Below, piece after piece: positions 10,871 to 17,991 of a DNA stretch of 35,189 nucleotides. The translations under genes were made by a program, and so were the position numbers. This stretch comes from Chloroflexota bacterium (GTDB taxonomy: Bacteria; Chloroflexota; Anaerolineae; DTLA01). Each line of letters starts with the position of its first letter. The first letter of the stretch is position 1. The DNA lies in assembly GCA_014360805.1 (NCBI GenBank), contig JACIWU010000027.1:1-35189 (forward strand). Direction: 5' to 3'. The notes under the pieces were generated by a model. That model made no database searches and was not told the DNA's origin. It worked only from the letters and a program-made list of their open reading frames with translations.

Positions 10871-13588
10871 ATGACCATTACGCTGACCGTAGACGGCAAG
10901 CAGGTAACGGTAGAAGACGGGGCCACGATTCTGGATGCGGCCAAGAAGGCAGGCGTGTACATCCCCACCCTGTGCGCCGATGAGGATTTGCTGCCCTTCG
11001 GCGCGTGCCGCCTGTGTCTGGTGGAGGTGCAGGGCGATCGCCGCCCCATGCTCCCCTCCTGCACCACGCCCGCCACCGACGGCATGGTGGTACGCACGTC
11101 TAGCCCTATCATTGACAAGACGCGCCGCAACATCGTGGAACTGCTCCTCTCGGACCACCCGGAGGATTGCCTGACCTGTCCCCAAAACAACCGCTGCGAC
11201 CTCCAGCGCGTGGCGGCCTACGTAGGCGTTCGCACCAACCGCTTCCGCGGCGAAAAGCACGCCTACCCGATAGATGACTCCAACCCGTTCTACCATCGCG
11301 ACCTGGACCGCTGTATCCTGTGCGGCAAGTGCGTGCGCACCTGCGATGAGATTCAACAACTCGGGGCGATCAACTTCGCCTATCGCGGCTTCCGCACCAA
11401 GATCGCGACGGTGCTGGACCGGCCCGTGGCGACCTCCACCTGCGAATCGTGCGGGCAGTGCGTGGAGAAATGCCCCGTAGGCGCGCTGTACCCGGAGGCC
11501 TGGCTGCGGTACGGACTGCCCGCCGCCGAGACGAAGACCATCTGCTCCTACTGCGGCGTGGGGTGCGGCCTGATCCTCCAAACCCGCGGCAACACGGTGG
11601 TAGGGGTGCGCGGCGACCCCGACAACCCCGTGAACCGTGGCCGCACATGCGTCAAGGGGCGGTTTGGGTACGAGTTCATCAACCATCCTGACCGCCTGAA
11701 GAAGCCGCTCATCAAGAAGGATGGGGCTTTCGTGGAAACCACCTGGGACGAGGCGCTTGACCTCGTGGCCCAGCGGTTGGCGTCGGCGGTGCGCGAGCAC
11801 GGCCCCGACGCAGTGGCGCTGCTTACATCCGCGAAGTGCACGAACGAGGAGAACTACCTGCTCCAGAAATTCGCCAGGGGGGTGCTGGGGACGCACAATG
11901 TGGACCATTGTGCGCGTCTCTGACACAGCAGCACCGTGACCGGTCTGGTCACAGCATTCGGCTCCGGGGCGATGACCAACTCCATTGACGATATGAAGGA
12001 GGCCAAAGCCTTCCTGATCATCGGTTCCAATACCACCGAGCAGCACCCCGTCATCGGGCTGAATATCCGCAGGGCGGTGCGCGAGGGGGCGAAACTCATC
12101 GTCGTGGACCCCCGCAGCACGGATTTGGCGCGGCGCGCCGATATCCACCTGCCGATTGAGCCGGGCGGCAACATCGCCCTGCTGAACGGCCTGGCGCACA
12201 TCATCCTGAAAGAGGGATGGGAAGACAAGGAGTTCATCGCCTCCCGCACCGAGGGGTTTGACGAGTGGCGGGCGGTGGTGGACAAGTACACACCTGAACG
12301 GGTCAGCGAGATCACCGGCGTCCCGGTGGAGCGCCTGTACGAGGCAGCCCGCCTGTACGCCACAGCGAAGCCCGCCGCGCTGGTGTATGCCATGGGCGTA
12401 ACCCAGCACACATCCGGCCACCAAGGGGTGCAGGCGTGCGCGAATTTGCAGATGCTCACGGGCAACATGGGCATTCGCGGGGGCGGCGTCAACCCGCTCC
12501 GTGGCCAGAACAACGTCCAGGGTGCGTGCGACATGGGTTGCCTGCCCGACTTCTTCCCCGGCTATCAGCGCGTCGTGGACGAAAAGGCCCGCGAGAAGTT
12601 CGCCCAGGCGTGGGGCGCGACCTTTGGCGACAGGCCCGGCCTCACCATCGTGGAGATGCTCAACGCCGCCGAGAAGGGACGGCTGAAGGCGCTCTACGTT
12701 ACGGGCGAGAACCCGGTCATGAGCGACCCCGACAGCCAGCACGTGATCCATTGCCTGGAGAGCCTGGACTTCCTCGTGGTGCAGGACATCTTCCTGTCCG
12801 AGACGGCGCGCCTGGCCGACGTGGTGCTTCCCGCCGCGTCGTTCGCGGAAAAGGCCGGCACGTTCACCAACACCGAGCGGCGCGTCCAGTTGATTCGGCC
12901 CGCCATTGACCCGCCGGGCGAGGCGCGTCCCGACTGGGAGATCGTCGCCGACCTGGCGCGCCGCACGTTGAAGGCGCTCGGGCAGACGCCCGATGGCCCC
13001 TACGCAGGCTGGGACTACGCATCTCCCGCCCAGATCATGGACGAAGTGGCGGCGCTGGCACCCATCTACGGCGGCATTCGCCACTGTCGGCTGGAGAACG
13101 GTGGCATCCAGTGGCCGTGCCCATCGCCCGATCACCCGGGCACGCCCATCCTGCACGTCGGCAAGTTCTCGCGCGGCCTCGGCAAGTTCAACCCGGTGGA
13201 TTACGTGCCCCCGGCCGAGACGCCGGATGAAGCCTATCCGCTCATCCTTACCACTGGCCGGAGGCTGGAACACTATCACACCGGCACCATGACGCGCCGC
13301 GTGGCGGGGTTGAACAAACTGGCCCCGGAGGAGCGCGTGGAGATCAACGCCGAGGATGCAGCGAGGCTGAGAATCGCGGACGGCGACTGGGTGGTCGTGG
13401 AATCGCGGCGCGGACAGGTGAAGGCGCGGGCCGCGGTGGGGCACCGTTGCAGGCCGGGCGTCGTATTTATGACGTTCCACTTCGCCGAGGCGCTGGGCAA
13501 CGTGTTGACCCACGCAGCGCTGGATCCGGTGTCCAAGATTCCAGAACTCAAAGTCGCGGCAGTCCGAGTGCACAAGGCGCCTTCGTAA
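10871..13588 (+). CDS. fdhA: Selenocysteine formate dehydrogenase, NuoG-FdhA fusion
   Basis: This molybdo- or tungstopterin formate dehydrogenase has 905 residues with selenocysteine 351 encoded by UGA at 11921-11923. A conventional reading splits it in two ORFs, but both halves share one frame and join within the active-site segment DHCARL-U-HSSTV, where other family members have Cys or Sec followed by His. The N-terminus is NuoG/HoxU-like: [2Fe-2S] C35, C46, C49, C64; His-Cys cluster H96, C100, C103, C109; two ferredoxin clusters C148-C158 and C191-C201. The catalytic part carries [4Fe-4S] ligands C225, C228, C232, C260 and a C-terminal pterin-binding domain. ATG 10871 follows GGAAGGAGA; in-frame ATGs further upstream (10766, 10853) lack this spacing. 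It works with the NuoE/NuoF-like subunits on formate/CO2 and NAD(P)H, possibly ferredoxin. selA, selB, selC and selD are not in the window. Confidence 0.93.
11921..11952 (+). promoter_or_regulatory. UGA(Sec) codon with SECIS hairpin
   Basis: The in-frame UGA (11921-11923) is followed by GTGACC (11936-11941), loop GGTCT (11942-11946) and GGTCAC (11947-11952), a perfect 6-bp stem. From memory, Escherichia coli fdhF has the same loop, GGUCU, at the same distance (+19 to +23 after UGA). The G and U of that loop are what SelB contacts. No bulged U is obvious in the stem, a small difference from fdhF. Position, loop and protein context agree on recoding rather than termination. Confidence 0.9.
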
Positions 13589-13617
13589 GCCGTGGGTTTG
13601 CCTCTTCGCTGTCGGTT

Positions 13618-13658
13618 GCGGCGCTGTGGCCTCGGCCCAGCGCCGCGTATCTTTGTTT
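13618..13658 (+). terminator. Intrinsic terminator after fdhA
   Basis: GCGGCGCTG (13618-13626) pairs with CAGCGCCGC (13638-13646), a perfect 9-bp GC-rich stem. The T-rich stretch GTATCTTTGTTT follows. It closes the formate dehydrogenase operon about 30 nt after its stop codon and abuts the next promoter. Confidence 0.75.
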
Positions 13659-13684
13659 GACATCGCGGGTTTTTGCGGTAAGAT
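13657..13684 (+). promoter_or_regulatory. Promoter for the proC leader
   Basis: TTGACA (13657-13662), a 16-bp spacer and TAAGAT (13679-13684). Transcription would start near 13691, about 230 nt before proC, so a long leader is made first. Confidence 0.75.
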
Positions 13685-13706
13685 ACACCGCAAAGGCGGC
13701 AGGCGT

Positions 13707-13820
13707 ATGTGGCATCGCATTCCCACGCAAATCGGACGAGGGCAGCGCACGCCTATCCCTCCCAGGCCCCTGGGCATCGCTCAGGGGCACAGGCACCACG
13801 GGGAGGTAGGGCGGCGATAG
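13707..13820 (+). CDS. Possible proline-rich leader peptide
   Basis: A 37-codon ORF inside the proC leader, preceded by a weak AAAGG at the RNA 5' end. Codons 16-21 read Pro-Ile-Pro-Pro-Arg-Pro, with another Pro at codon 6. The Pro codons (13752-13769) form the 5' strand of P3. A ribosome stalled there for lack of charged tRNA-Pro would free 13801-13806 to pair with the terminator's 5' arm. One that reached the stop (13818-13820) would cover that segment and let the terminator form. This fits control of a proline biosynthesis gene. Pro codons are common by chance in C-rich DNA, so confidence is low. Confidence 0.35.
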   Translation: MWHRIPTQIGRGQRTPIPPRPLGIAQGHRHHGEVGRR

Positions 13821-13860
13821 CGTTCGCCTGCGATGGAACCATGTCGTTCGTCTTGAACAT

Positions 13861-13886
13861 GCCTCCCTCACGGGAGGCGTTTTGTT
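13861..13886 (+). terminator. Intrinsic terminator in the proC leader
   Basis: GCCTCCC (13861-13867), loop TCAC, GGGAGGC (13872-13878), then GTTTTGTT. It lies between the leader promoter and proC, so proC expression needs readthrough or another start. Confidence 0.8.
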
Positions 13887-13918: not shown

Positions 13919-14809
13919 ATGGAAGAGACAGTCCAACAAGCGCGGTTGGCCTTCATCGGCAGCGGCACCATGGCCGAGGCCATGATTCAGGGCATTTTGC
14001 GGTGCGGCGTTACGGCGGCGGGCCACATCTGGGCGAGCGGCCCCCGCAAGGAACGCGCCGCCGAGTTGACCGCCAAGTACGGCATCCACGCCACGACCGA
14101 CAACCGCGAGGCCGCCCGCAATGCCGATGTCGTCGTCCTGTCGGTCAAGCCGCAGCGGCTTCGCATGGTTCTGCACGAACTTCGCGGGACGGTGCGGCCC
14201 GAGCAACTCGTCATGTCCATCGTGGCGGGCGCGAAGGTCTCCTACATCGCGCAGACGCTCGGCGCTCCGTCCGTCATCCGCGTGATGCCCAACACGCCCG
14301 CGCAGATCGGCGAGGGGATTTCGGTGTGGTTCGCCACGCCCCAGGTTACGCCCGAACAGCGGGAGGTGGGGCGCAGGATTCTGACCGCCCTGGGCGAAGA
14401 GATAGAGGTGGACGAGGAGCGCTATCTGGACATGGCGACGGCGGTGAGCGGCACCGGCCCGACCTACGTGTTCCTCATCATGGAGGCGCTGGTGGACGCG
14501 GCGGTGCACCTGGGATTCTCGCGGCGCATCGCCGAGGCCCTGGTTACGAAGACCGTCCTGGGGTCGGTGCTGTTCGCGCGCCAGTCCAACCTGCACCTGG
14601 CGCAACTCCGCAACATGGTAACCTCGCCAGGCGGGACGAGCGCCGAGGCCATCTACCAACTGGACAAGGGCAGCATCCGCACGGTGCTGTCCAAGGCCGT
14701 CTGGGCGGCCTACCAGAAGTCCAAACTGCTGGGCGAGTCGCTGTCGCAGGAATCCGAGCCGGAAGCCCGCCCCAACGGCAGCCCGCCGTCGGAAAAGTTG
14801 GAATCGTAA
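13919..14809 (+). CDS. proC: Pyrroline-5-carboxylate reductase
   Basis: This enzyme catalyses the last step of proline synthesis, the NAD(P)H-dependent reduction of 1-pyrroline-5-carboxylate in the cytoplasm. The Rossmann motif FIGSGTMAEAMI lies near the N-terminus (residues 12-23). MPNTPAQIGEG, AVSGTGPTYVF and SPGGTSAEAIYQLDKG are the family signature segments. At 296 residues it is somewhat longer than the usual 265-280 because of a hydrophilic tail of about 25 residues after the last helix. GGAAAGGG lies upstream of the ATG. A terminator-containing leader precedes it and dut follows. Confidence 0.95.
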   Translation: MEETVQQARLAFIGSGTMAEAMIQGILRCGVTAAGHIWASGPRKERAAELTAKYGIHATTDNREAARNADVVVLSVKPQRLRMVLHELRGTVRPEQLVMSIVAGAKVSYIAQTLGAPSVIRVMPNTPAQIGEGISVWFATPQVTPEQREVGRRILTALGEEIEVDEERYLDMATAVSGTGPTYVFLIMEALVDAAVHLGFSRRIAEALVTKTVLGSVLFARQSNLHLAQLRNMVTSPGGTSAEAIYQLDKGSIRTVLSKAVWAAYQKSKLLGESLSQESEPEARPNGSPPSEKLES

Positions 14810-17638: not shown

Positions 17639-17685
17639 TCGTGCGTCTCCCGTGGCGACACAGGCGTTGATATGAGTGTACTACA

Positions 17686-17802
17686 GCCGTGCGTGGGCGC
17701 AAATGGGGGCCTACGGCTCGCGCGGGTTGTGGCCCTGCGGGTCGCTGCCCGAACGACGCGCGCGCACGAACCGCGCCGCGCGCTCCCCCACGGATGGCGA
17801 CA
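17686..17802. repeat. 117-bp direct repeat, copy A (flippase 3'-end remnant)
   Basis: This segment matches 17875-17991 with about five mismatches in 117 bp and no gaps. The second copy contains the last codons and stop of the flippase gene plus some 3' flank. Copy A is therefore a displaced, non-functional copy of that gene end, still encoding a recognisable version of the flippase C-terminus on the - strand. It lies between the glycosyltransferase and flippase genes. Confidence 0.85.
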
Positions 17803-17865: not shown

Positions 17866-17874
17866 CTCGCTATG

Positions 17875-17991
17875 GCCGTGCGTGGGCGCAAATGGGGGCC
17901 TACGGCTCGCGCCGCTTGCGGCCCTGCGGGTCGCTGCCCGAACGACGCGCACGCACGAACCGCGCCGCGCGCTCCCCCAGGGATGGCGACA
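17875..17991. repeat. 117-bp direct repeat, copy B (in the flippase gene)
   Basis: The partner of copy A at 17686-17802. Positions 17900-17991 are the 3' coding end of the flippase gene; 17875-17899 are its 3' flank. Copy B is taken as the original because it is in frame with the intact gene. Confidence 0.85.

Follow-up and report, generated by a model that had tools for sequence, protein, structure and literature searches.

A conserved leader and candidate proline-codon attenuator upstream of proC in a genus of Chloroflexota

The window analysed here, meaning the whole stretch of 35,189 nucleotides (positions 1 to 35,189 of contig JACIWU010000027.1), comes from a 3.24-Mb Chloroflexota genome, referred to below as G000. 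It includes proC, encoding pyrroline-5-carboxylate reductase, which carries PF14748 and PF03807 and scores above the TIGR00112 cut-off. Between this gene and an upstream molybdopterin oxidoreductase gene lies a leader of approximately 195 nt, bounded by a predicted promoter and a predicted intrinsic terminator, and transcription would be expected to begin at about position 13690. The promoter is the sole promoter-like site found before proC (0.2 expected). The features of the locus are as follows.

11936-13588: molybdopterin oxidoreductase gene, upstream of the proC promoter
13657-13684, + strand: predicted sigma-70-type promoter, TTGACA-16-TAAGAT, read from sequence; identical hexamers in G001 and G002
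13707-13820, + strand: candidate leader peptide ORF, 37 codons followed by TAG, MWHRIPTQIGRGQRTPIPPRPLGIAQGHRHHGEVGRR
13733-13886, + strand: structured core, a long rod plus terminator, the basis of covariance model R1; its outer stem has three compensatory pairs
13752-13769, + strand: Pro-Ile-Pro-Pro-Arg-Pro codons (CCT ATC CCT CCC AGG CCC), on strand 1 of helix P3
13758-13763, + strand: strand 1 (CCTCCC)
13766-13788, + strand: apical hairpin GCCCCTGGGC-ATC-GCTCAGGGGC; pair-preserving changes GU to GC and GC to GU in G001
13801-13806, + strand: strand 2 (GGGAGG), partner of strand 1 or, as antiterminator, of strand 3; invariant in three species
13859-13886, + strand: predicted intrinsic terminator, hairpin 13859-13880 with GTTTTGTT tail; stem GCCTCCC/GGGAGGC invariant in three species
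13862-13867, + strand: strand 3 (CCTCCC), 5' side of the terminator
13872-13877, + strand: second GGGAGG copy
13919-14809, + strand: proC, pyrroline-5-carboxylate reductase

The region preceding the promoter differs somewhat among relatives. In G000 a GC-rich hairpin region (13599-13660) lies 3' of the oxidoreductase gene without a T-rich tail, and read-through from upstream into the proC leader is therefore possible in this genome. A T-rich tail is present after the upstream gene in G001, where a strong terminator closes the upstream unit, and by eye also in G002, where it follows a similar but less perfect hairpin. Elsewhere in the window, a direct repeat of 122 nt (17681-17802 and 17870-17991, 94% identical, start-to-start spacing 189) sits, by eye, between putative glycosyltransferase and flippase genes.

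We compared the leader across G000, G001 and G002, three uncultured species of one genus that represent its whole order within the collection. Promoter, leader, terminator and proC follow one another in the same order in all three species, the unit before proC in the two other species showing DNA identities of 76% and 72%, and the terminator tail is separated from proC by 26-32 nt. The promoter, structured 195-nt RNA and intrinsic terminator that the preliminary description had placed before proC were thus all located by sequence and retained in three of three species, and the coordinates in that description all proved correct. The ATG of the ORF is invariant among them, as are three of its Pro codons (16, 18 and 21), strands 2 and 3 and the stem of the terminator, and a core of approximately 70 nt that includes the apical hairpin is mostly invariant; divergence is seen at the start of the leader, with the first ORF codons, and in the linker that joins strand 2 to strand 3. 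In none of the three species was a promoter-like site found in the interval from the leader terminator to proC, so expression of proC probably depends on read-through of the terminator. For this reason a regulated terminator has the strongest support of anything described here. Indeed, from these sequences it is very likely that a conserved conditional terminator controls proC.

To what extent does this element occur elsewhere? A search of 393 other genomes of the class with covariance model R1 and stricter filters returned no homologue; three weak matches were rejected, one lying in an ATPase coding region, one resting mainly on a look-alike terminator and one on a short GC-rich stretch. A DNA search of 57 other genomes of the class gave no match to the leader, a pattern scan of IMG/VR gave none either, and the regions upstream of proC in other Chloroflexota families looked unlike it among the matches listed. 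Within G000 itself we found no second copy of the element. The regions upstream of the ornithine aminotransferase genes of G000 and G002 carry no such leader, and a survey of the genomes studied for runs of His codons, which might mark further leader peptides, yielded none that was convincing.

The leader is also unlike described RNA families, as no Rfam family matched it even at E values up to 10. The T-box riboswitch (RF00230) gave no covariance match to the leader up to E = 10 or to its relatives up to E = 5, and 6S RNA (RF00013) gave none in the leader; the genuine 6S RNA of this genome is encoded elsewhere (G000:C36:30214-30393, 89.5 bits). The preliminary description had named two findings that would speak against it, namely helices retained without the ORF or its Pro codons and a match to a known RNA family such as 6S. 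In the three species and the Rfam searches, neither was seen.

The leader folds to -92.6 kcal/mol (z = -3.5), a value beyond all 200 shuffles. CCTCCC and GGGAGG each occur twice, as had been described, and they form mutually exclusive 1:2, 2:3 and 3:4 helices from an exact set of strands, with one G-G mismatch in the 1:2 helix of G001. An exact 6-nt antiterminator strand together with an exact competing upstream strand arose in 0.5% of dinucleotide shuffles. In the consensus fold, compensatory changes are seen at three pairs of the outer stem, a stem that is dispensable for a trp-like model, and the apical hairpin shows two changes that preserve its pairing. In helix P3 of G001 the uncompensated G-G mismatch is the same change that converts Pro19 to Ala (CCC to GCC). 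In the alignment of relatives that the preliminary description had called for, the ATG and Pro codons 16, 18 and 21 are kept; the covariation is only suggestive, since three sequences were available and the score was equalled by shuffled controls in 35 of 500 trials.

The 37-codon ORF was found with its Pro-Ile-Pro-Pro-Arg-Pro codons on the 5' strand of P3, precisely as first described. Across the three species the ORF spans 33-37 codons and begins at an invariant ATG preceded by Shine-Dalgarno-like sequences with duplex energies of about -7 kcal/mol each. Codons 16-21 specify P-I-P-P-R-P in G000 and G002 (four Pro codons each) and P-I-P-A-K-P in G001 (three), and CCT, which makes up 6% of the Pro codons in the genes of the window, is used twice in the leader. 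The trp-like geometry is common to all three species, with Pro codons on strand 1 and a stop codon that overlaps strand 2 or lies shortly after it. Set against this geometry, the sites that vary among the three species fall 10/16/11 by codon position and so give no sign of peptide-level selection, all reading frames of the leader are open apart from a single stop in one frame of G002, and G001 lacks one of the Pro codons; the Pro-codon reading proposed at the outset is partly supported. The ORF and its Pro codons fit the attenuator model but are weak independent evidence for it, because the peptide shows no constraint beyond the region already constrained by the RNA core and a C-rich strand yields some Pro codons in any frame.

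Stalling was modelled by constrained folding of each leader with a 30-nt ribosome mask, the 2:3 pairing being scored at the point where strand 4 is about to be transcribed. A ribosome placed on Pro codons 16-21 gave pairing of 0.18-0.70 in G000, 0.95-1.00 in G001 and 0.00-0.95 in G002, as compared to 0.00 in all three species with the ribosome at the stop codon and at most 0.22 without a ribosome. A free search for the sequence that pairs best with strand 3 in a stall-specific manner selected GGGAGG in each of the three species, and shuffles performed at least as well in 7 of 150 cases for G000, 0 of 150 for G001 and 19 of 150 for G002. The modelled switch is thus clear against shuffles in G001, marginal in G000 and indistinguishable in G002, and these stall-specific values are to be read with caution because the score was devised once a broader one, which counted pairing of strand 3 with any upstream sequence, had given no excess in G000 and weaker excesses in G001 and G002. 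The proposal that a stall at Pro codons would free the antiterminator, and that arrival at the stop would block it, finds partial support in the model, with a clear separation from chance in G001.

A scan of stall sites indicated that antitermination would be favoured mainly at about codons 13-25, a range that includes all four Pro codons. Other codons within this range also free strand 2 when the ribosome is stalled on them, and in G002 the model yields antitermination at stalls on non-Pro codons as well. Once strand 4 is present, the terminator wins in the models of G000 and G002, and kinetics must therefore be invoked for these two species. Stall-dependent antitermination is here a prediction of the modelling.

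Taken together, the leading explanation is ribosome-mediated, trp-like attenuation that would sense charged tRNA-Pro, to which we assign a probability of about 0.5. Under this model transcription would begin near 13690 and a ribosome would translate the leader of 33-37 codons. When Pro-tRNA is short the ribosome would wait at codons 16-21 (CCT ATC CCT CCC AGG CCC) with strand 1 hidden beneath it, leaving strand 2 (GGGAGG) to pair with strand 3 (CCTCCC), such that no terminator forms and polymerase reads into proC. When Pro-tRNA is plentiful the ribosome would instead run on to the stop codon, located at strand 2 or immediately beyond it, and the 3:4 terminator would form and stop transcription. 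Without translation, strands 1 and 2 (or the surrounding rod) would be expected to pair, and the terminator would form in this case too. Low proline would in this way raise proC expression.

The most serious competitor is a riboswitch of an undescribed class, in which the rod would be an aptamer that binds a metabolite (proline, ornithine, P5C or a different one) and governs this same terminator, the ORF being a by-product of GC-rich sequence. The near-invariant core of about 70 nt with its apical hairpin and pair-preserving changes, the three compensatory pairs located outside the Pro codons, and the lack of peptide-level constraint in the ORF are all features that such an RNA might show. This idea nonetheless sits poorly with the lack of any Rfam match even at E values up to 10, with an element known from one genus only and, in our own reading of the consensus, with a core that is mostly paired stem with few conserved unpaired joints; it also leaves the coincidence of Pro codons and a proline gene to chance. 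We therefore consider it unlikely, and the narrower version, in which the rod binds proline, ornithine or P5C and controls the proC terminator without any leader peptide, is somewhat more doubtful still.

A long conserved imperfect stem followed by a conserved terminator would also suit an RNA-binding protein that stabilises the rod or the antiterminator in the manner of PyrR or LicT, but neither a candidate protein nor a second copy of the element was found in the genome, and this kind of control appears improbable. A different possibility retains the leader peptide without tuning it to proline, the ribosome stalling at Pro-rich codons through EF-P shortage, an antibiotic or general coupling. 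The Pro-Pro within PIPPRP, the broad stall window of about codons 13-25 and the loss of one Pro in G001 are what one might expect in that case, yet the position of the element before proC would then be coincidental, and we give this explanation a small chance of being correct. Finally, the transcript would be a discrete rod of about 195 nt with a promoter and a terminator of its own, which would suit an independent small RNA gene from which proC is transcribed by leaky read-through only. This reading is very improbable, given the strict linkage to proC, the lack in all three species of a promoter after the terminator and before proC, and the location of the 6S RNA of this genome elsewhere.

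Ribosome-mediated attenuation is a long-known kind of control, of which the proC leader is a plausible new instance. Like the trp-, his- and leu-type attenuators, it has a short leader ORF in which strand 1 carries codons for the amino acid that the pathway makes, competing 1:2, 2:3 and 3:4 helices, and an intrinsic terminator before a biosynthetic gene. It differs from them in concerning proline and proC in Chloroflexota, in lacking a clean run of control codons (PIPPRP) and in having an extra long outer stem, and its translation and response are predictions from sequence and modelling. Proline-codon attenuators have been described in Salmonella, in mgtP of the mgtCBR leader and in the mgtA leader ORF, where transcription of the genes that follow increases when charged tRNA-Pro is scarce (PMC3641672). 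Judged from their description, these leaders resemble the one presented here in their proline-codon-rich ORFs, but control Mg2+ transport and other genes rather than proline synthesis. In Bacillus subtilis, proBA and proI, the latter encoding a P5C reductase, are under a tRNA-Pro T-box (PMC9245794); the pathway step (proI) and the control of transcription by tRNA-Pro are shared with the present model, whereas the T-box binds tRNA directly without a leader peptide, and the proC leader has no T-box match. A further parallel is the uORFC-8-2 motif before cysS in Rhodobacterales, which was likewise obtained from comparative genomics as a lineage-restricted structured uORF with conserved cognate codons (PMC8632094), although its codons are for cysteine and its gene encodes a tRNA synthetase. 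The preliminary description knew of no leader-peptide attenuator for a proline gene. We likewise found none on a proline biosynthetic gene in the open-licence literature, as represented mostly by titles and abstracts, but the mgt leaders and the proline-gene T-box show that proline-codon attenuators, and tRNA-Pro control of proline genes, each exist.

The proline pathway itself appears to be unusual in these organisms. In G000, G001 and G002, proA gave no match at all and proB none over its cut-off, while ornithine aminotransferase scored 589-593 bits in the three genomes. ProC is therefore probably supplied from ornithine, and likely catalyses the last step of proline synthesis by this route. 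Beyond proline, trpE and leuA fall below their family cut-offs in the three genomes, cut-offs that several control genomes also miss, and the genus would seem either to be auxotrophic for a number of amino acids or to depend on unusual routes. If the attenuation model is correct, the proC leader would place a gene of proline biosynthesis under a leader-peptide attenuator, the control we found described for such genes being the T-box, and would be a case of ribosome-mediated attenuation in Chloroflexota. It would also tie this regulation to an unusual metabolic arrangement, with ornithine as the probable source of the proline formed by ProC.
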